Shown here in pieces: positions 3,147 through 14,691 of a DNA stretch of 31,554 nt. Each line of letters starts with the position of its first letter. Within the stretch, counting starts at the first letter, position 1. Origin of the DNA: a virus. Location of the stretch: the IMG/VR virus record IMGVR_UViG_3300021519_000041, positions 1 through 31,554 of that record; one strand, given 5' to 3'. A program made the translations under genes and the position numbers. The notes beneath the pieces were generated by a model, which saw nothing but the letters and a program-made list of their open reading frames with translations, made no database searches and was not told the DNA's origin.

Positions 3147-3460
3147 TGGCTATAAATAAAATATGGCTCGTAACTAAACTCCCACACGATAACACAGAGG
3201 GTGAAACCACTCGACGTCGTGCAGCTACTAATATTCTAGTAAGTCTGGGTGTTTCAAGCGGTATTACATTTGAACGAGATGATGCCATCAAACTGTATTA
3301 CACAACAGAAGCTGACGCTATTCGTTCGTGTGAACACCTAGCAACTAAAAATCCAATGACTCCATATGCTGTCATGGCAATCTCAACAATTCGTGAAACA
3401 GGCGTTCCACAAGTTATTACCAAATCATTTACTAATGAAGGAGAACTTGTAATTGTCTAA
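3146..3460 (+). CDS. Hypothetical protein (104 aa)
   Basis: The family is not recognised. The 104-residue product looks alpha/beta, starting with MAINKIWLVTKLP and with two probable helices. It overlaps the upstream stop by one base and its own 3' end by 8 bases with the TTG start of the C26-type hydrolase; the GAAGGAG that serves that start lies inside this gene. This places it at the head of the amide-chemistry cassette, although its own role is unknown. Confidence 0.7.
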   Translation: MAINKIWLVTKLPHDNTEGETTRRRAATNILVSLGVSSGITFERDDAIKLYYTTEADAIRSCEHLATKNPMTPYAVMAISTIRETGVPQVITKSFTNEGELVIV

Positions 3461-4070
3461 ACTTAAAATCCTAGCAACAGTCCCACTGGGTACAGGAGTA
3501 GCTCGTGAAATTAAAGATCTTTTTGATATTACTATTCGTTGGACTCCTGACGCTGAGTATGATGCTATTCTTTTTGAAGGTGGTTCAGATATACATCCTT
3601 CATTATATAACAATCCAAATACCCACAGTCATGTAAACGATACACCATCAAGACGTGATGAAATTGAAGTAACAGCAATGAAAGATGCTATTCAAAAGAA
3701 AGCATTAATTATTGGTATATGCCGTGGAGCCCAATTAGCATGTGCCTTAGCGGGTGGTAAACTAGTTCAACATGTCAATCATCATGGCGGATCACATAAT
3801 GTTCTGACAGAAACTAATGAATCATTTCTAGTATCTAGTGTACATCATCAACAAATGTATCCATGGGAAGTTGATCATGAATTATTAGCATGGTCAGCAG
3901 AAAGTGATATCTATTTAGGTCATGAAATTAATGAAACAAATGCATACAATGAACCTGAAGCTGTCTTCTTCCCTAAAATTAACGCATTAGCATTTCAGTG
4001 GCATCCGGAGTGGGCAGCATCACCTGAAGAGCTTGACTATACTATTAACCAAATTAAGGAAAAGTTATGA
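3453..4070 (+). CDS. Class I glutamine amidotransferase-like hydrolase (peptidase C26 type)
   Basis: This predicted cytoplasmic amidohydrolase (205 aa) belongs to the gamma-glutamyl-gamma-aminobutyrate hydrolase/peptidase C26 group of class I amidotransferase folds. The signature pieces are GGSDIHPSLY (43-52), the nucleophile elbow IIGICRGAQ (86-94, Cys90), and FQWHPEW (181-187, His184 and Glu186), completing the Cys-His-Glu triad. These enzymes cleave gamma-glutamyl amide bonds or deliver ammonia. It starts at TTG 3453: GAAGGAG (3437-3443) sits nine bases upstream, and the first in-frame ATG lies beyond the GGSD motif, so no ATG start is possible. It is followed by an amidoligase with an ATGA overlap, which suggests it either supplies ammonia or trims a gamma-glutamyl product. 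Confidence 0.88.
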   Translation: MSKLKILATVPLGTGVAREIKDLFDITIRWTPDAEYDAILFEGGSDIHPSLYNNPNTHSHVNDTPSRRDEIEVTAMKDAIQKKALIIGICRGAQLACALAGGKLVQHVNHHGGSHNVLTETNESFLVSSVHHQQMYPWEVDHELLAWSAESDIYLGHEINETNAYNEPEAVFFPKINALAFQWHPEWAASPEELDYTINQIKEKL

Positions 4071-4906
4071 GCATAGAAGCCATGTACAATCTTGAACCTG
4101 CGGAACTAAATATTATTCAAGCAATGTTATCAACAGATACAGACTACGTTCGCATTGGTTCAGATCCTGAAACATTCTTAAAAGACAAAACAGGACGCTT
4201 TATATCATCTGTTGGTCTTATTGGTGGTAGTAAAGATGCTCCAATGTCTATTGGTAATGGTTGCTCTGTACAAGAAGACAATGTAACTGTAGAATTTAAC
4301 ACACCTCCAACCAACGACGTAGAGGAATTCGTAAATGTCATCAACTTTAATCTTAACTGGATTACAAAACGTGCTGCTGAGCTTGATCTCACTGTTGTTT
4401 TTGATCCAAGTGCTGAATTCGATGATGAACAGCTTAATACCAAAGCCGCTCAAACTTTCGGATGTGATCCTGATTTTAATGCTTGGAATTACGGTGCAGC
4501 TAATGCTAAGCCTCGCACTAAAAACAAGCATTTACGATCTGCTGGCGGTCATATTCATATTGAAGCTCCGCACTTGGATAAACTGGCACTCTGTCAAGCG
4601 ATGGATCTATTCGTCGGTGCGCCTATGTTAAGATTTGACACAGATACACGACGTCGTGAGCTTTACGGCAAAGCAGGTGCATATCGTCCAAAGGAATATG
4701 GTATTGAATACAGAACAGCATCGAATGCGTGGCTACAAAGCGACGAAACAAAGAAATGGGCGTTTGAACAAACTCAAAAAGCTGTTAGATTCGTGGAAGA
4801 AGGCAAGGTCATCACACCAGAACTCGGCGACTTGATACAAACAGCAATCAACACATCAAACGTTAATTTAGTACCAGACATTGAACATTGGGCAACTAGT
4901 TTATGA
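4067..4906 (+). CDS. phiEco32-type amidoligase (COOH-NH2 ligase, type 2)
   Basis: This 279-residue member of the glutamine-synthetase-fold amidoligases would join a carboxylate to an amine with ATP. Visible motifs are a SDPETFL segment (32-38), QEDNVTVEFNTPP (69-81) with the acidic metal ligands expected in strand 1-2, GGHIHIE (160-166), a basic run DTRRRELYGKAG (193-204) and YGIEYR (211-216). This order matches the phiEco32-like amidoligase-type 2 family as I know it. It overlaps both neighbours by four bases and sits between a Cys-triad amidohydrolase and an unknown protein. The acceptor and donor are unknown; family context suggests peptide or cell-wall peptide modification. The assignment is strong and the substrate is open. 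Confidence 0.88.
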   Translation: MSIEAMYNLEPAELNIIQAMLSTDTDYVRIGSDPETFLKDKTGRFISSVGLIGGSKDAPMSIGNGCSVQEDNVTVEFNTPPTNDVEEFVNVINFNLNWITKRAAELDLTVVFDPSAEFDDEQLNTKAAQTFGCDPDFNAWNYGAANAKPRTKNKHLRSAGGHIHIEAPHLDKLALCQAMDLFVGAPMLRFDTDTRRRELYGKAGAYRPKEYGIEYRTASNAWLQSDETKKWAFEQTQKAVRFVEEGKVITPELGDLIQTAINTSNVNLVPDIEHWATSL

Positions 4907-5499
4907 ATCCTAATCAGATATTTGAAGACTTTGATCGTAAATATCAAGGTAGTTTTGTCCAAGTATCGTTTAAAGGTGAAGAACCAAGCTTATTTCAACT
5001 TGTTAAAACTACAAATGGACCTAAATTCCCTAAATTAGAGCTAAAATCTGATAAAGTAGGTACAATTGTGCTTAATTATAACACAAGTGCACGCATCTTC
5101 TTTAAAATGCCACAAACAACTTACATCCAAATCGAGAAAGATGCAAACTTCTTCACCCGAAGACCTGAACGTCAATGGAAAAGAGGTATTCATCAAAACA
5201 ATTGTGGTGTATTTAGTCCACTTAACATATATACAGCTAGACGGGATTTACGTATTGTAGACTTTAATACAATTAGAGCAGCTTTTAATCCAGTATATTC
5301 AACATTTAGCAACGCAATGGACATGCTCAATAACAAAGGTTACAACGGTGTTGCATTATCTCGTAACCTAGCTATTCTTAATCCTAAAAAAGCAGGATAT
5401 GTCTTATTTTACAGGTTTGCACCTATTGGAACTGTAACAAAAGACGGTAAAATCAGTTGTAATGGCTTTGAGGAGGTACTTACTGATGAAATTAAATGA
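4903..5499 (+). CDS. Unknown protein of the amidoligase cassette (198 aa)
   Basis: I do not recognise a domain. The 198-residue product has an N-terminal part with alternating strands (about 15-75), a central basic segment TRRPERQWKRGI (about 85-96) followed by a lone Cys at about 101, and a helical part around FSNAMDMLNNKGYNG. There is no membrane segment. It lies between the two amidoligases, with an ATGA overlap upstream and a 14-base overlap downstream, so it is almost certainly part of the same pathway, perhaps a substrate or scaffold. The gene contains AGGAGG at 5471-5476, which is the ribosome binding site of the next gene. Confidence 0.75.
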   Translation: MNPNQIFEDFDRKYQGSFVQVSFKGEEPSLFQLVKTTNGPKFPKLELKSDKVGTIVLNYNTSARIFFKMPQTTYIQIEKDANFFTRRPERQWKRGIHQNNCGVFSPLNIYTARRDLRIVDFNTIRAAFNPVYSTFSNAMDMLNNKGYNGVALSRNLAILNPKKAGYVLFYRFAPIGTVTKDGKISCNGFEEVLTDEIK

Positions 5500-6337
5500 A
5501 CGTAACGACTATCCTAAACTAAACATCAACAAAGATATCAAAGAACCACTAAATACTCAAGGGTTCAATTATTATAGCATGCCCTTAACAGGTGTTGAAG
5601 TTGAAGTTGAAAACTTTACAACTCAGCTTGACCCTCTGCCAAGTCACAGCTGGCGTGTTGAGACAGATGGGTCATTACGTAATCGTGGCGTAGAGTTTAT
5701 CTCAAAACCAACAGAACCAAAACATATTGAATCTGCTATTACTTATTTATTTGATGACATCTTAAATCAAAGAAATCATTTTAGTCCTCGGACAAGTATT
5801 CATGTACATTTAAATTGCCGTGAATTAACATTTGATCAAGTCTATAACATTGTAATCTTATATCAATGCTTTGAAGATCTTTTATATAGCTTTGCCGGTC
5901 CAGAACGAAAGAAATCTATCTTCTGTATTCCTGTTGGCAACACAGATTATTATAATGCACTTAAAACATTAATGAAAGCAGAAACTTTACCAACATGGAG
6001 CAAATATACAGGCTTAAATCTTGGACCACTCCGTGAGTATGGTACTATCGAGTTCCGTCATCTGCGTGGTACTCGTAATAAATTTGTAGTATTTGATTGG
6101 CTTCACATCTTATATAAACTATATACCTTTGCAATCTCACTAGAAACAGAAGAACTAGAAAAACTTATTCATAATACAACAGTCTCTCATGATTACTTTG
6201 GTCTTGGCTACGCAGTATTTGGTACTCATTTTCTAACATTAACACGTGACGCTTCATATGAAAAAACAATGAAAACTGATATGACTATTAGTAGATTATT
6301 TAGCTATAAAAAACCTAACTTAGAAGGATACATCTGA
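5486..6337 (+). CDS. Second amidoligase (Amidoligase_2-like)
   Basis: This 283-residue protein shows the pattern of the glutamine-synthetase-like amidoligase_2 group: GVEVEVEN (36-43) with alternating acidic residues, DGSLRNRGVEFISKP (61-75), SIHVHLNC (104-111), and YGTIEFRHLRG (185-195) with the Glu/Arg pair near the C-terminal half. It is only distantly similar to the upstream amidoligase, so the cassette carries two ligases of the same fold. The start at ATG 5486 is chosen because AGGAGG (5471-5476) lies nine bases before it; an in-frame ATG at 5462 has no such site. Its stop overlaps the next ATG (TGATG). Confidence 0.85.
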   Translation: MKLNERNDYPKLNINKDIKEPLNTQGFNYYSMPLTGVEVEVENFTTQLDPLPSHSWRVETDGSLRNRGVEFISKPTEPKHIESAITYLFDDILNQRNHFSPRTSIHVHLNCRELTFDQVYNIVILYQCFEDLLYSFAGPERKKSIFCIPVGNTDYYNALKTLMKAETLPTWSKYTGLNLGPLREYGTIEFRHLRGTRNKFVVFDWLHILYKLYTFAISLETEELEKLIHNTTVSHDYFGLGYAVFGTHFLTLTRDASYEKTMKTDMTISRLFSYKKPNLEGYI

Positions 6338-7719
6338 TGTGTGGAATTGTTGGTCTTATATCAAAGACCCCTACAGGTCTCTACCATAGCGACTTAGACT
6401 TATTTGAAGAATTACTAATGTGTGACAGTGTTCGTGGTCTTGATAGCACTGGAGCCTTTGGTATCCATAAAAACAAACAAGCTAAAGCCTTCAAAGTAGC
6501 TGCTGCTCCAACAGAAATGTTTCGTTGCGAAGAGTGGGGCGATTTTCGTAACAAAGCTATAAGTAGTATGACAACATTAGTAGGCCATAACAGGTCTGCA
6601 ACACGAGGTGCTGTTAACTCCGAGAATGCACACCCTTTTCATGAGGGTAACATCATGCTCGTACATAATGGCACATTACATAACCATAAAGACTTTAACA
6701 AAGATGTGGAGGTTGACAGTCATGCAATTACCCATGCTTTTAATGAACGACCAGCAAAAGAAGTACTTAAAGAAATCAATGGAGCTTTCACCTTCGTGTG
6801 GTATGACAGACGTGTCGGACGATTGTTCATTGCCCGTAACAATGAAAGACCACTTGCGTATGTCGAAACGAGCAGCAATATTATATTTGCCAGTGAAGGG
6901 CCTATGTTGGACTGGATTTTAGGTCGTAAATCAAGTACATTCCCTAAAGCACAATCCTTCCCAGTTGGTGAATTAATCTCGTTTGATGGTAAAGGTGTAA
7001 AAACATCTGAACCCTTTGAACTATATACCCCAAAGCCTATCGGGAATACGAATATGACAGTTACAAGTCCTTACGGGCAACAAAGCCGCTTGCCTCTCGT
7101 TGGTATGACGAGGACAGTCTCTACCCTTTCTGTTAATGATCGTATTCCCGCAGGTACTAAAGTATTAGTAAAAGTTGATGAACTTATGCAAAACTCTATT
7201 CAAAACGGAACAATTCGCTTAAAAGGTAAGATGCTATATCCAAACAACAAAACGGATATCGCAGGCTATCTCGCTCGAGACTTAGATATTGCAGATGCAT
7301 ATCAAATGATTCGTTTACCTTATGTCGAAGGTACTGTACATAACTATCACTCGTCTAATTGTGGTGCTAGCTATTTCATTAATAACATTTGTTTTCCAGA
7401 AATGATTAAAGTTCATAATACATCATTACCAATAGTTATGTGGCAAAACATAGCTAATAACCACAAATGTGATAAGTGCGGTGGGAAGATCAGCCATCAT
7501 CAACCTGATTTTACTAGCGTTAAACTTAAACACACTTCAAACAAACTTAGAGTAGTCTGTGCAGACTGCGTCAGCGAGGCATTTAGTGAAGCGACAGAAA
7601 AACAACAAGCAGCTATCATCGAAAGTAGCTCTAACCCTATATCGAAGGGGCTCTCGATCGGCAAGAGCACTGATAGCTGGGCTTTCGCAAAGTATCCAGA
7701 AGCGTGTGCTTATCATTAG
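6337..7719 (+). CDS. Class II glutamine amidotransferase with C-terminal zinc knuckle
   Basis: The protein (460 aa) begins MCGIVGLIS, so Cys2 becomes the N-terminal nucleophile after Met removal, as in PurF/GlmS-type Ntn amidotransferases. GHNRSATRG (83-91), VHNGTLHN (109-116) and DSHAI (127-131) complete the glutamine site. The domain ends near residue 225. The middle (about 240-370) has no recognised domain. A CxxC...CxxC pair (Cys378, 381, 408, 411) forms a probable zinc ribbon, followed by a polar tail. It would release ammonia from glutamine for a partner ligase; no phosphoribosyl or sugar-isomerase domain is visible, so the partner is likely one of the neighbouring amidoligases or the ATP-grasp. 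The 3' end overlaps the next gene by 14 bases. Confidence 0.88.
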   Translation: MCGIVGLISKTPTGLYHSDLDLFEELLMCDSVRGLDSTGAFGIHKNKQAKAFKVAAAPTEMFRCEEWGDFRNKAISSMTTLVGHNRSATRGAVNSENAHPFHEGNIMLVHNGTLHNHKDFNKDVEVDSHAITHAFNERPAKEVLKEINGAFTFVWYDRRVGRLFIARNNERPLAYVETSSNIIFASEGPMLDWILGRKSSTFPKAQSFPVGELISFDGKGVKTSEPFELYTPKPIGNTNMTVTSPYGQQSRLPLVGMTRTVSTLSVNDRIPAGTKVLVKVDELMQNSIQNGTIRLKGKMLYPNNKTDIAGYLARDLDIADAYQMIRLPYVEGTVHNYHSSNCGASYFINNICFPEMIKVHNTSLPIVMWQNIANNHKCDKCGGKISHHQPDFTSVKLKHTSNKLRVVCADCVSEAFSEATEKQQAAIIESSSNPISKGLSIGKSTDSWAFAKYPEACAYH

Positions 7720-8389
7720 GCAAGATCGTGTCCATCTACTTAAACCTACTAGATTTATTATTAACTGGGGTAGCAGTGAGCCTTTCAATAACATACCATA
7801 TTGTCGTATTTACAATAATCCTGATAATGTACGCCTTGCTAGTAATAAGTTGTTTACTTTTAAGCAGTGGCGTCGTCATGGGGTATCATGTCCTGAATGG
7901 ACGGAAGATATTAATGAAGCTAAAGACTGGCTGGAACATAATCAAACCGTATTTTGTCGTACTCTGCTTCAGTCTCATAGTGGCGATGGTATTGTTATTG
8001 CCACCACTCCTACTGAGCTTGTCAGGGCACCTCTATATACGAAATATATAAAGAAAAAGAAAGAGTTTCGTGTCCATGTATTCAACGGTAAAGTTATTGA
8101 TGTACAAGAAAAAAGACGTAGTAATGATGCATATAACAGTAGCTTTCTTATCCGCAATCATGCTAGCGGCTTTGTGTTTTGTCGTGACAATGTTGTCGAA
8201 CCAACCGATCTCAGAGACACAAGTCTTAAATCTGTTGAAGCACTAGGTCTGGATTTTGGAGCAGTTGATATTGTATGGAATGAACATTATGACAAATGTT
8301 ACGCTCTAGAAGTAAATTCAGCTCCAGGTCTTGAAGGTACAACACTACAAAAGTATGTAACAACTATTAAGGACTTAGCATATGGCTAA
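7706..8389 (+). CDS. Small ATP-grasp ligase
   Basis: This 227-residue ATP-grasp protein has an N-terminal WGSS segment (21-24), a flexible glycine loop CRTLLQSHSGDGIVIA (84-99), a basic strand YIKKKKEFRVHVFNGKVIDV (114-133), FGAVDIVW (184-191) and the metal-binding LEVNSAPGLEGTT (201-213). These match the RimK/YheC-like superfamily that ligates an amino acid or peptide through an acyl-phosphate. I start it at GTG 7706 because similarity to ATP-grasp begins just after it; no ATG is available and the Shine-Dalgarno is weak, so an upstream GTG (7559) inside the amidotransferase gene cannot be excluded. It closes the enzymatic part of the cassette. Confidence 0.85.
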   Translation: MLIIRQDRVHLLKPTRFIINWGSSEPFNNIPYCRIYNNPDNVRLASNKLFTFKQWRRHGVSCPEWTEDINEAKDWLEHNQTVFCRTLLQSHSGDGIVIATTPTELVRAPLYTKYIKKKKEFRVHVFNGKVIDVQEKRRSNDAYNSSFLIRNHASGFVFCRDNVVEPTDLRDTSLKSVEALGLDFGAVDIVWNEHYDKCYALEVNSAPGLEGTTLQKYVTTIKDLAYG

Positions 8390-10006: not shown

Positions 10007-10707
10007 TGGCAACCTTTTTACAACATGAAGCATGTCCCAAATGTGGGAGCAAAGATAACCTTGGAAGATACTCAGATGACTCAGCATACTGCTTTGGATG
10101 TGGCTACACTGAAAAACGAAGTCGATTCACTCCACCAACAGATAGATTGCCTGAAGAACCATCAATCCGACTACCAAAAGATGCAAGCACTGTTATTGGT
10201 GTGGCTGGAAAATCGTGGTTAGGTAAATATGACATAACTGTTGAAGAGCAACAACGCTATCGCATGCTATGGTCGGACTCCCGGAGACAATTGATCTTCC
10301 CGCTCTATAGTAAAACAGGCGACTTAGCAGCTTGGCAAGGCCGTAACTTTGACCCAAAAGCCACCGGAAAATACTTCTCACAAGGTAAAATCCATGATCT
10401 ATTGTACTTTTGTGGTAAAAAAGGCTCACCTGTCATTCTTGTAGAAGACCTCCTCAGTGCGATTAAAATAGGTAGAATGAGTATAGCTATGCCCTTATTC
10501 GGGTCAGAGGCTTCTACACCCCTTTTAATGCGTTTAAAAGGACATTGTAGCTCTATCATTACCTGGTTAGACAGCGATAAATGGAGAAACTCCCAAGATA
10601 TCGTAAAACGCTCGCAGTCCATAGGATTGCCAGCAATGTCAGCGTACACTAACTTAGATCCTAAAGAATATAATACGGATCAAATAAGATACTTCTTGAC
10701 AAAGTAA
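10006..10707 (+). CDS. DNA primase (zinc finger plus Toprim, T7 gp4-like N-terminal half)
   Basis: The 233-residue protein begins with a zinc-binding domain, CPKC (10-13) and CFGC (29-32), as in the T7 gp4 and DnaG primases that select the template start site. A core follows with LIFPLYSKTGDLAAWQGR (96-113), and a Toprim domain with VEDLLSAIKIG (146-156, Glu147) and TWLDSDKW (186-193, Asp189 and Asp191), which bind the catalytic Mg2+. It synthesises RNA primers for lagging-strand replication in the cytoplasm. Unlike T7 gp4, the helicase is a separate gene just downstream, under its own promoter. It lacks any motif beyond Toprim. Confidence 0.9.
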   Translation: MATFLQHEACPKCGSKDNLGRYSDDSAYCFGCGYTEKRSRFTPPTDRLPEEPSIRLPKDASTVIGVAGKSWLGKYDITVEEQQRYRMLWSDSRRQLIFPLYSKTGDLAAWQGRNFDPKATGKYFSQGKIHDLLYFCGKKGSPVILVEDLLSAIKIGRMSIAMPLFGSEASTPLLMRLKGHCSSIITWLDSDKWRNSQDIVKRSQSIGLPAMSAYTNLDPKEYNTDQIRYFLTK

Positions 10708-10724
10708 CAATACTATGGTATAAT
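10696..10724 (+). promoter_or_regulatory. Consensus sigma70-type extended -10 promoter
   Basis: TTGACA (10696-10701) and TATAAT (10719-10724) are both exact consensus hexamers with an ideal 17-base spacer, and TGG directly before TATAAT makes an extended -10. The expected transcription start, about seven bases downstream of TATAAT, falls at or within a base or two of the helicase ATG at 10731. The promoter lies across the end of the primase gene. It should be read by unmodified host RNA polymerase. Confidence 0.88.
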
Positions 10725-10730
10725 AATTAT

Positions 10731-11957
10731 ATGATCGAATTACAAGTACTTTATGCCTTTCTAACCAAAGAAATATGGTCTACATACCGTAAATTCTTTG
10801 AGAAAAGCAAGCTCACAAAAGAGATTAAAACACTGCTGGAGATTCTAGATGATTATCATACCAAGCACACTAACGACTTAACACTCAATGAGTTTGCTGT
10901 TGTATGTGAAACATCTGGAAAAACAGATGCTACCCATGTAGCCGTATTAGATACTATTAGTTCCTGCCATGTAAGACCAGAGTTAGTTGAAGGATTACTT
11001 AAATCCTACAAGCAGAAAGTCTTGCTTAATCAATTAGCTCTGGTTTCTTACGATGCCTCCGAAGGGCGTAAAGAAATGTCAGATGTTCATAAAGTAATTA
11101 ACGAACTAGACCAACAAACTGAAATAGGTTCAGTAGATGAAACAAAGTTTGCAACAGACGACCTTGAAGAACTCTATCAACATACCTACCTCAAACCTGG
11201 TTTACGTTGGCGTCTTGGTGCTCTTAATCGTAGCCTCGGCAGCCTTCGCAAAGGCGACTTTGGTTTTATATTTGCTCGTCCAGAGACAGGAAAGACAACC
11301 TTTCTTGCATCTGAACTAACACATATGGCAGAACAAGCTTCACGACCTGTTCTTTGGATCAATAATGAAGAACAGTCTTCTAAAGTTATGCTACGATGTT
11401 ACCAAGCATTACTAGGTCTCAATAGCACACAACTGTTTGCAAACAGAACAAAAGCTAAAGAAGACTATGATAACCGACTTAACGGTCGCTTAAAGATATT
11501 TGATGCAGTATCAGCAACAGCAACAGATATTGAATCACTATGTAAAACCATGAATCCAGAATTAATCGTCTTTGACCAGATCGATAAAATTAAAGGGTTC
11601 GACGACGATCGTGATGACTTGCGACTCGGTGCCATCTATCAATGGGCACGAGAACTAGCAAAGACTTACGGTCCTGTTATTGGTGTTACACAAGCAGATG
11701 GTAATGGCGAGGGCGTTCATTACCTAAACATGGGGCACGTCGCAAATGCAAAGACTTCTAAACAAGCGGAAGCTGATTGGATTCTAGGCATTGGTAAAGA
11801 CATTAATCAAGATGAGCTGGAGTATATTAGGTTCCTACACATTTGTAAAAACAAACTACAAGGTGATCCTGATACTATCCCTGAGCTTAGGCATGGTAAA
11901 CTAGAAGTACAAATTGCTCCCGAAATTGCCCGATATGAGGACTTGCAACATGGCTAA
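10731..11957 (+). CDS. Replicative DNA helicase (DnaB/T7 gp4 RecA-fold)
   Basis: The 408-residue protein has an N-terminal helical domain (about 1-140) and a RecA-type motor: Walker A RPETGKTTF (183-191, Lys188), the NNEEQ segment (211-215), Walker B LIVFDQIDKIKG (278-289), and GVTQAD (318-323), followed by the glycine-rich loop and helicase H4 region. It should form a hexamer that unwinds DNA ahead of the polymerase and recruits the adjacent primase. There is no Shine-Dalgarno before ATG 10731, and the perfect promoter upstream places the predicted mRNA start at the ATG, implying leaderless translation. The N-terminal residues look family-like, so a much later start is unlikely. Confidence 0.9.
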   Translation: MIELQVLYAFLTKEIWSTYRKFFEKSKLTKEIKTLLEILDDYHTKHTNDLTLNEFAVVCETSGKTDATHVAVLDTISSCHVRPELVEGLLKSYKQKVLLNQLALVSYDASEGRKEMSDVHKVINELDQQTEIGSVDETKFATDDLEELYQHTYLKPGLRWRLGALNRSLGSLRKGDFGFIFARPETGKTTFLASELTHMAEQASRPVLWINNEEQSSKVMLRCYQALLGLNSTQLFANRTKAKEDYDNRLNGRLKIFDAVSATATDIESLCKTMNPELIVFDQIDKIKGFDDDRDDLRLGAIYQWARELAKTYGPVIGVTQADGNGEGVHYLNMGHVANAKTSKQAEADWILGIGKDINQDELEYIRFLHICKNKLQGDPDTIPELRHGKLEVQIAPEIARYEDLQHG

Positions 11958-12628: not shown

Positions 12629-13750
12629 ATGAAAGTAATATGCTTTGATATTGAATGCACTATTTCAAATAAAGGACAACCTTTTGACACTACCAACAAA
12701 TTGGTATCTGTCGCTTGGACTGATGGCACTACTAGCCATTGTACAACGCCTGAAAACCTGGCACCATTCCTCACAGATTTACAATGTGCTGACATACTTA
12801 TCGGCTTTAACATCAAGTTTGACATTAATTGGCTTCGTCGTTACGGTGTTTCTTTTGATGACAAACGTGTCTATGACTGTCAACTTGCCGAGTATATTAT
12901 TAGACGTCAGCGTATTAAGTATCCTAGTCTCGCTGGCTGTCTGGAGACTTACGGATTGGACGGTAAGCTCGATATCGTTAAAGAGGAGTATTGGAAAAAG
13001 AATATCGACACTGATAAAATCCCTTGGGAAATCCTTGCCAGATATAACATAGTAGACGTAGAACAAACGTTTAAAGTCTATCAACTACAACAAGAACTAC
13101 TGAGTCCATTACAAAAGCGACTAGTTGCACTCTGTTGTGCTGATCTAATGACTCTTCAAGAAATGGAGTTCAATGGACTCCCAGTTGACTTAGAACGCTG
13201 TCAACACAAATCTACTGAGATACTAAAAGAAATAGCTATTGTGACTAATGAGCTAGCCTCTAAATATCCTCATGTCCCGATCAACTTCAACAGTACAGAT
13301 AATCTCTCAGCCTTTCTATATGGCGGTACAATTGAAGAAGAACGGCGAGAAGTAGCAGGCCTGTATAAAACAGGAAATAAGATTGGTCAACCAAGATTCC
13401 GCATCAACCGTATTGAACATACTCTTGCTGGTCTAGTTAAACCAATCGAAGGATCAGAACTTCAGAAACCTGGCATGTACTCTACATCGGAAGACGTCCT
13501 AAAAAAGATAAAGGACAAAACCGGAGTGATTGCTAACTTACTGAAACTAGCAGGGCTTACAAAGATCAATGAATTCTTTGAAGGCTTCATGCGTATACAC
13601 AAAGATATGAATTGGCCACCAAATCGGATTCATGGTCAATTTAATCAAGTAACTACATGGACTGGTAGGTTGTCTTCTACCAAACCAAATCTACAAAACA
13701 TGTGTCCTGAAATTCAGGAATGTGTAAGGAGCGAATATGGGCAAACTTAA
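12629..13750 (+). CDS. DNA polymerase I family, N-terminal part (3'-5' exonuclease and thumb)
   Basis: This 373-residue protein is the first part of a family A DNA polymerase. It has the proofreading exonuclease motifs FDIEC (6-10, Asp7 and Glu9), FNIKFDINWL (60-69, Asp65) and YNIVDVEQT (139-147, Asp143), then the thumb region (LMTLQEMEFNGLPVDL), and ends shortly after TGRLSS (345-350) and PNLQNMCPEIQECVRS (353-368). The palm motif A that normally follows within about 20 residues is missing here and starts a separate gene 207 bases downstream. The last four or so residues come from the overlapping next gene. The two halves together total 617 residues, close to the usual phage size. Confidence 0.9.
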   Translation: MKVICFDIECTISNKGQPFDTTNKLVSVAWTDGTTSHCTTPENLAPFLTDLQCADILIGFNIKFDINWLRRYGVSFDDKRVYDCQLAEYIIRRQRIKYPSLAGCLETYGLDGKLDIVKEEYWKKNIDTDKIPWEILARYNIVDVEQTFKVYQLQQELLSPLQKRLVALCCADLMTLQEMEFNGLPVDLERCQHKSTEILKEIAIVTNELASKYPHVPINFNSTDNLSAFLYGGTIEEERREVAGLYKTGNKIGQPRFRINRIEHTLAGLVKPIEGSELQKPGMYSTSEDVLKKIKDKTGVIANLLKLAGLTKINEFFEGFMRIHKDMNWPPNRIHGQFNQVTTWTGRLSSTKPNLQNMCPEIQECVRSEYGQT

Positions 13751-13973
13751 ACAAGCAATGATCATCTCAGAGGAATTAGCTGCTGTAGCTGCAGAATCTT
13801 GGGAGCACACAGTAATGTCTAACGTCAACGAATACATCGGAATTCATGGCGCCTCTGTCTTTAAAGATGCCCTTATGATGTTCAATCGAGATGCGTATGA
13901 CAAACTCTTTCATCCTAAAGAAAGTCCTAAGACATGTGCACTAACTGAAACTAAAAATGCTCATCCAAGCTGA
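13737..13973 (+). CDS. Unknown protein inserted between the two polymerase genes (78 aa)
   Basis: The gene has its own strong ribosome binding site, AAGGAG (13726-13731), five bases before its ATG, and overlaps both polymerase parts by 14 and 17 bases. All three genes are in different frames. The 78-residue product has a helical N-terminal half (KQAMIISEELAAVAAESW) and no HNH, GIY-YIG or LAGLIDADG motif, so it does not look like a homing endonuclease. It has no recognised family. It may be a small polymerase accessory or the remains of an inserted element. Confidence 0.7.
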   Translation: MGKLKQAMIISEELAAVAAESWEHTVMSNVNEYIGIHGASVFKDALMMFNRDAYDKLFHPKESPKTCALTETKNAHPS

Positions 13974-14691
13974 TGCAAAAGCCCTCGAATGGTGGACAGC
14001 TGTATGGTTAAGTCAAGACAAGACAGGGATTTCCGAGATAGTAAACGGTATCGATCTACACACCGAAAACGAAAAGACCTTCGGCTTACCATCTCGCCTT
14101 ATTGCCAAGAAGTATCTATTCAGGACAATCTATCGTGGGTCTGCGTATGCTTTTGCAAAAGATCCAGAGTTTGCGGCTACAAGCTCATCCATAAAGTTCT
14201 GGGAAGGCATCGGAGACAAGTTCTTCTCGAAGTACGCCGGTCTAAACGCAAAGCACAAAGAATGGGCAAAACTAGTAGCCCATGGTAAACCAATCATTGG
14301 ACCACAAGGCAGGGAGTGGTTCTTCGATATGAAACGCAACTTCCGTGGAGAATTAGAAGTACCATGGACAACACTAACCAACCATCCCGTACAAGGAACT
14401 GGTCATGACATTATGGCAATCATACGAGTATCGTTCTTCAACCGTCTAAAAAAACAAAAACTACAAGCTAGACTAATAGGTACGATTCATGACTCTATTC
14501 TGGTTGACACACCAGAAGAGAACGTAGATGCTGTAGTAAACTTATTTGAGTCTTGCTTCGCAGACATGCCTGACAATTTCAACAGGATGTTCGGAGTTAA
14601 ACCAAATATACCATTAGCATGTGAATGCTCAGTAGGTCCAAATATGAATAACTCTGTTGAGTATTATTCACAATACAAAAAAGAAAGGTAG
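13957..14691 (+). CDS. DNA polymerase I family, C-terminal part (palm and fingers)
   Basis: This 244-residue protein begins MLIQADAKALEW, that is, directly at motif A (Asp6, Glu11), then motif B RLIAKKYLFRTIYRG (47-61: Arg47, Lys51, Phe55, Tyr59) and motif C TIHDSILVD (176-184, His178-Asp179). These carry the catalytic metals and dNTP contacts, so the protein holds the polymerase active site but lacks exonuclease and thumb. It has to work with the 12629-13750 product as a split enzyme. Its ATG has only a weak ribosome binding site, so translation probably depends on coupling to the intervening gene. The next gene starts three bases after its stop. Confidence 0.9.
   Translation: MLIQADAKALEWWTAVWLSQDKTGISEIVNGIDLHTENEKTFGLPSRLIAKKYLFRTIYRGSAYAFAKDPEFAATSSSIKFWEGIGDKFFSKYAGLNAKHKEWAKLVAHGKPIIGPQGREWFFDMKRNFRGELEVPWTTLTNHPVQGTGHDIMAIIRVSFFNRLKKQKLQARLIGTIHDSILVDTPEENVDAVVNLFESCFADMPDNFNRMFGVKPNIPLACECSVGPNMNNSVEYYSQYKKER

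Follow-up and report, generated by a model that had tools for sequence, protein, structure and literature searches.

A family A DNA polymerase encoded in two genes, divided just ahead of motif A, in a lineage of MEP401-type phages and their freshwater relatives

Comparative analysis indicates that the family A DNA polymerase of the virus studied here (IMG/VR record IMGVR_UViG_3300021519_000041; all 31,554 nt analyzed are referred to as the window) is a real two-gene polymerase, shared by a whole phage lineage. We consider it very probable that a single event in the ancestor of this lineage divided the gene and that the two polypeptides assemble into one active enzyme, with a homing endonuclease as the likely origin of the split. 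A split polymerase is already known from the OM43 phages MEP401 and MEP402, for which it was reported in 2023 with an intron left open (PMC10580990). Relative to the literature searched, the evidence speaking against an intron, the constant position of the half boundaries, the two layouts for expression of the C-half and a probable second fission in the ICP2 line are new here.

The three genes of the region lie on the plus strand in three different frames. The N-half (373 aa, positions 12629..13750; identified by Pfam and PHROG matches, exo I-III motifs and dN/dS) contains the 3'-5' exonuclease, the thumb and the TGRLSS/QN segment, with the TGRLSS motif at 13661..13678, near the 3' end of the gene (located by sequence and by alignment with intact homologues); its C-terminus reads VRSEYGQT, followed by the stop. 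The C-half (244 aa, 13957..14691; identified by Pfam and PHROG matches, alignment, a PDB profile match to the Taq/Klenow polymerase domain, and dN/dS) starts with M-LIQAD and contains the palm and fingers, with the catalytic Asp codon of motif A at 13972..13974 (residue 6 of the C-half), motif B (the O-helix, R...K...F...Y) at 14095..14133 and motif C (HDS) at 14488..14496, all three placed by alignment. In Pfam, the N-half matched DNA_pol_A_exo1 (5e-6) and positions 53-133 of the DNA_pol_A profile (3e-16), and the C-half matched positions 154-379 of the latter (1e-19). Alignment with intact homologues showed that all motifs are retained, i.e., exo I-III, TGRLSS/QN, motif A (DxxxLE), motif B (R-K-F-Y) and motif C (HD); the halves together carry the PF01612 exonuclease, the PF00476 polymerase, exo I-III, TGR and motifs A, B and C of a family A (phage PolA) enzyme. 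The middle ORF (78 aa, 13737..13973), which overlaps the N-half by 14 nt and the C-half by 17 nt, is predicted to encode a helical protein; its AAGGAG ribosome-binding site, read from the sequence, lies within the N-half (13726..13731), 5 nt ahead of its ATG, and its reality is supported by homologues in the same gap, dN/dS and an AlphaFold model. Median dN/dS values in the clade were 0.16, 0.08 and 0.12 for the N-half, middle ORF and C-half, respectively, and purifying selection acts on all three genes. These data agree with an earlier note on the window, which had placed the three ORFs, their frames and their overlaps at these positions and had assigned the exonuclease, thumb and TGRLSS to one polymerase gene and motifs A, B and C to the other; the 78-codon gene that it described, with its own AAGGAG and overlapping both halves, is a real gene as judged by its dN/dS of approx. 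0.08.

The location of the break between QN and motif A, just before the first catalytic Asp, was likewise borne out by alignment with intact homologues. The only difference lies in the loop that connects SEYG to the motif A strand, where a handful of residues have given way to a short tail, a stop codon and a new start Met. The N-half ends 13-18 residues past QN in most split relatives (it is longer in the L012 group and in phage QDWS535), while the Met of the C-half lies 5 residues ahead of the motif A Asp in nearly all of them. In most of the loci L012-L024 and L027, the N-half extends 24 codons further and overlaps the middle ORF in another frame. The AlphaFold model of the intact homologue L109, with a mean pLDDT of 88, places the break within loop 442-447, and the strand that directly follows (448-454) bears the motif A Asp. 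This model suggests that the split opens a palm hairpin loop and leaves the flanking elements intact, and that the two chains would meet inside the palm. A correlation of 0.93 between N-half and C-half distances was set aside as proof of contact, as it reflects shared ancestry.

To place the break in an evolutionary context, relatives were gathered from IMG/VR and from phage isolates, and a tree of 53 polymerases was built. The 35 split polymerases in this tree were monophyletic (100/100 support), with the intact HMO-2011-type genes as their sister group and the ICP2 type outside; the window shares both the break position of MEP402 and this common ancestry. Every assessable locus with a C-half at least about 37% identical to that of the window was split, and no fused polymerase gene was seen at assessable loci inside the split clade; HMO-2011-type relatives (about 30% identity), found in the search for intact relatives that the earlier note had proposed, had a single ORF in every assessable locus. 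A scan of genome contigs for relatives returned only distant Aquificota and Peribacillus polymerases. The distance from the N-half stop to the C-half start varied among relatives, with values of -17, -14, -1, 0, 1, 29, 41, 48, 52 and 83 nt at the short end and larger gaps of about 180-284, 380-500 and up to 3598 nt; all three relative frames of the halves occurred. In L085 just TAA-ATG separates the halves, in one frame, while in MW202796 a methyltransferase and other genes lie between them. Dozens of relatives from separate assemblies have the identical break, as do the sequenced isolates MEP401/402 and QDWS535; many relatives carry no insert at this point, so the break is not tied to the middle gene. 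Overall, these comparisons indicate a genuine, old gene fission.

Several known systems resemble the window to different degrees. MEP401 and MEP402 (Zobellviridae) have a similar order of the replication module, the same break and a small ORF in the gap, and they belong to the same clade; the window nevertheless represents a distinct branch, with about 41-42% identity per half, and the homology of its middle ORF to MEP402 gp14 is remote and no more than probable. In Alcaligenes phage vB_Af_QDWS535 two adjacent coding sequences show the same break (halves 41% and 47% identical to those of the window), but there is no middle gene, stop and start overlap as TAATG, and the N-half has a longer tail. 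The Vibrio phages ICP2, ICP2_2013_A_Haiti and VP41s3 also have a Zobellviridae family A polymerase split in the same segment; however, their break lies approx. 13 residues further upstream and they form a separate tree branch, which suggests that this fission was probably independent. One fission in the window clade and another in the ICP2 line would be the simplest reading, although an older single fission, followed by re-fusion and a shifted boundary, keeps some slight probability. In ICP2 (L136, HQ641345) the HNH gene 51 occupies the gap, while in ICP2_2013_A_Haiti about 10 nt separate the two ORFs, with nothing inserted; the ICP2 polymerase annotated as joined around gene 51 is thus probably a mis-annotated split gene, and our literature search found no paper on an intron in it. 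Bacillus phage Goe9 (L146), which has an SPO1-type gp31 with I-HmuI, shares with the window a family A polymerase annotated as two coding sequences with an ORF between them. Unlike the gap of the window, the interruption of SPO1-type gp31 is a known group I intron that carries a nuclease (see the references in PMC10580990).

The starts of the C-halves were compared for signals of separate expression. Of the 52 distinct starts, 45 overlap the stop of an upstream ORF or are located near it. Stop/start overlaps are common in phages anyway, as a result of tight gene packing. Six of the remaining seven starts are preceded by a TTGACA-17-TATAAT/TATACT sigma-70 promoter (11-12/12 matches) located 8-16 nt before the ATG, and the seventh is at a contig edge; the 41-nt gap of L028-L031 consists essentially of such a promoter. 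Strong TTGACA/TATAAT sites numbered 0 to 4 per contig on the plus strand, as compared to a rate of 0.026 per kb in shuffled sequence. The short distance to the ATG implies a leaderless or nearly leaderless mRNA for these C-halves. In the window, the first codon of the C-half lies inside the middle ORF, 17 nt ahead of its end; as neither a clear ribosome-binding site nor a strong promoter precedes this codon, translation of the C-half is probably coupled to termination on the middle ORF (termination-reinitiation). Both layouts, i.e., stop overlap and promoter, agree with separate expression of the C-half and with hardly anything else. The window also has a perfect TTGACA-17-TATAAT site at 10696-10733, six nt before the ATG (10731) of its helicase gene, which would probably yield a leaderless mRNA; this layout is the same as that of the C-half promoters in relatives.

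The possibility that a self-splicing (group I) intron or another RNA element containing the 78-codon ORF is removed, giving a single polymerase mRNA, deserves attention because group I introns are frequent in phage polymerase genes, the authors who described MEP401/402 considered an intron (PMC10580990), the ICP2 polymerase is joined in GenBank and motif B of the same gene is interrupted in three relatives by an intron-like insert that contains an HNH ORF. In a permissive covariance-model search, the motif B insert of L101 matched Rfam RF00028 with 33.8 bits (E 1e-6), under the gathering score of 50; the region 5300-6000 of L101 holds a group I intron with an HNH ORF in motif B of an already split C-half. 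The motif B inserts of L093 and L100 resemble this intron by eye, and those of L093 and L101 carry a TTGACA-17-TATAAT site of their own. At the gathering threshold Rfam detected no intron in the whole window, a threshold that also misses the motif B introns of L093, L100 and L101 (of these three, L101 was searched permissively). With L101 as positive control, the group I search suggested earlier found no intron in the gap of the window; positions 13500-14200 gave no RF00028 match up to E 10, and the best match (E 1.8) was to a snoRNA model on the other strand. Moreover, the same break occurs in relatives with only -17 to 52 nt between the halves, which is too short for a self-splicing intron, the window gap is filled by a conserved gene that overlaps both halves, and an intron would account neither for promoters directly ahead of the C-half nor for other genes in a 3.6-kb stretch between the halves. 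Splicing is therefore very unlikely. A programmed frameshift, a ribosomal bypass of the T4 gene 60 type or stop readthrough that would join the halves is just as improbable: the arrangement in L085 is compatible with readthrough, but even close relatives differ freely in the length of the gap and in the relative frame of the halves, at odds with the defined gap of the T4 gene 60 type, several C-halves have their own promoter, and the window would need a bypass of 206 nt. Of the two routes left open by the earlier note, reassembly of two polypeptides is strongly supported by comparison, while repair at the RNA level is very unlikely.

Rejoining of the halves by a split or degraded intein has a precedent in the split intein reported for the phage polymerase MIJ3 PolB (PMC6892783). 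In the window and most relatives, however, both half ends lie within a few residues of the fold boundary, with no room for intein blocks. The earlier argument that three frames rule out an intein holds as to the frames, but frames alone do not exclude a split intein; it is the lack of any intein-sized extension past the fold boundary that refutes it for the window, and we give this reading hardly any weight. An error in sequencing or assembly is equally negligible, as is a pseudogene in decay. The window does consist of one virus contig only, and an error joining the frames had been named as a way in which the split could disappear; both error and pseudogene are refuted by recurrence of the break in many separate assemblies and isolates and by strong purifying selection on all three ORFs.

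The middle ORF had no match in Pfam or among 50,697 phage records, a single weak match in PHROGs (phrog_37267, E 0.006) and no significant fold match in the PDB; AlphaFold predicts three helices (pLDDT 81). It is conserved among close relatives of the window, and in many MEP402-like relatives the gap holds small acidic proteins of similar layout. In ct2os315 the small middle-type protein stays beside the N-half though the C-half has moved away. Window-type and MEP402-type middle proteins are probably homologous, on suggestive evidence that falls short of proof (hhalign probability 36%; HMM cross-hits with E 0.07-0.4, as compared to reversed decoys starting at 0.41 for the combined model). No middle-type ORF was found in the gaps of L028-L031, QDWS535, L061, L073, L085 and others, and it thus seems dispensable for a working split polymerase. 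Other gaps contain HNH endonucleases (L059, L086, L094 and L096), unrelated small proteins or, at 3782-3988 of L052 (MW202697), an R67-type dihydrofolate reductase gene (PF06442, E 3e-22). It is conceivable, though rather unlikely, that the polymerase has three components, with the helical middle protein binding one or both halves and controlling their assembly, and with separate expression (from an own promoter or by coupling) adjusting how much of the exonuclease half is free relative to the complete polymerase.

No homing endonuclease motif had been seen earlier in the window, and the middle ORF indeed has no nuclease match in Pfam or PHROGs; the relatives listed above and ICP2 do carry HNH genes in the gap. 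As the middle ORF is not a homing endonuclease, the evidence on the origin of the split is indirect. The HNH genes in the gap, the HNH-bearing motif B intron and the ICP2 pair suggest that homing endonucleases repeatedly attacked conserved active-site codons and that one such attack made the split, but an endonuclease could equally have invaded a split that already existed. In L059 (1539-2083) and L086 (403-939), the C-half start (MLIQADA / MLLQADA) is duplicated, and an HNH gene separates it from a second, recoded start, which is followed by a frame-shifting extra stretch of 7 nt or 4 nt. This arrangement weighs against the reading preferred here.

Taken together, the preferred reading is that a single fission in the ancestor of a large phage lineage, comprising the MEP401-type Zobellviridae and freshwater relatives, would have cut the gene at the palm hairpin loop just ahead of the motif A strand. 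A free-standing homing endonuclease, since lost or replaced in the window, was the likely insertion at the origin. N-half and C-half would be translated separately and then assemble, one chain contributing the exonuclease and the other the three catalytic motifs. In the window, where the start of the middle ORF overlaps the N-half stop, translation of the C-half would be coupled to termination on the overlapping middle ORF; in some relatives, a promoter of its own would drive the C-half, whose mRNA is apparently leaderless. Precedents for an essential phage enzyme encoded in two genes are nrdA/mobE of phage Aeh1 and gene 43A/43B of Aeromonas phage 25, in which the splits are linked to a homing endonuclease and the halves function together: the split NrdA of Aeh1 is active, and gp43A/B of phage 25 co-purify and have polymerase activity (PMC2988022). 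These are a ribonucleotide reductase and a family B polymerase, respectively, whereas the window encodes a family A polymerase. The window shares with Aeh1 nrdA a single gene in outgroups and two ORFs, whose separate translation is suggested by their layout; it differs in having no endonuclease gene in the break and in that its split is fixed across a whole clade.

Outside the polymerase region, positions 3453-8389 of the window encode class I and class II glutamine amidotransferases, two COOH-NH2 ligase/amidoligase genes and a RimK-like ATP-grasp gene, a putative set for peptide or cell-wall modification.

Overall, these data indicate that stable division of a replicative family A polymerase right before its first catalytic aspartate is possible and that it persists through the diversification of a whole phage lineage, thus answering the question of intron or split raised in 2023. 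The natural split points may be useful for engineered split polymerases, and the comparison suggests that homing endonucleases have targeted the motif A region repeatedly.
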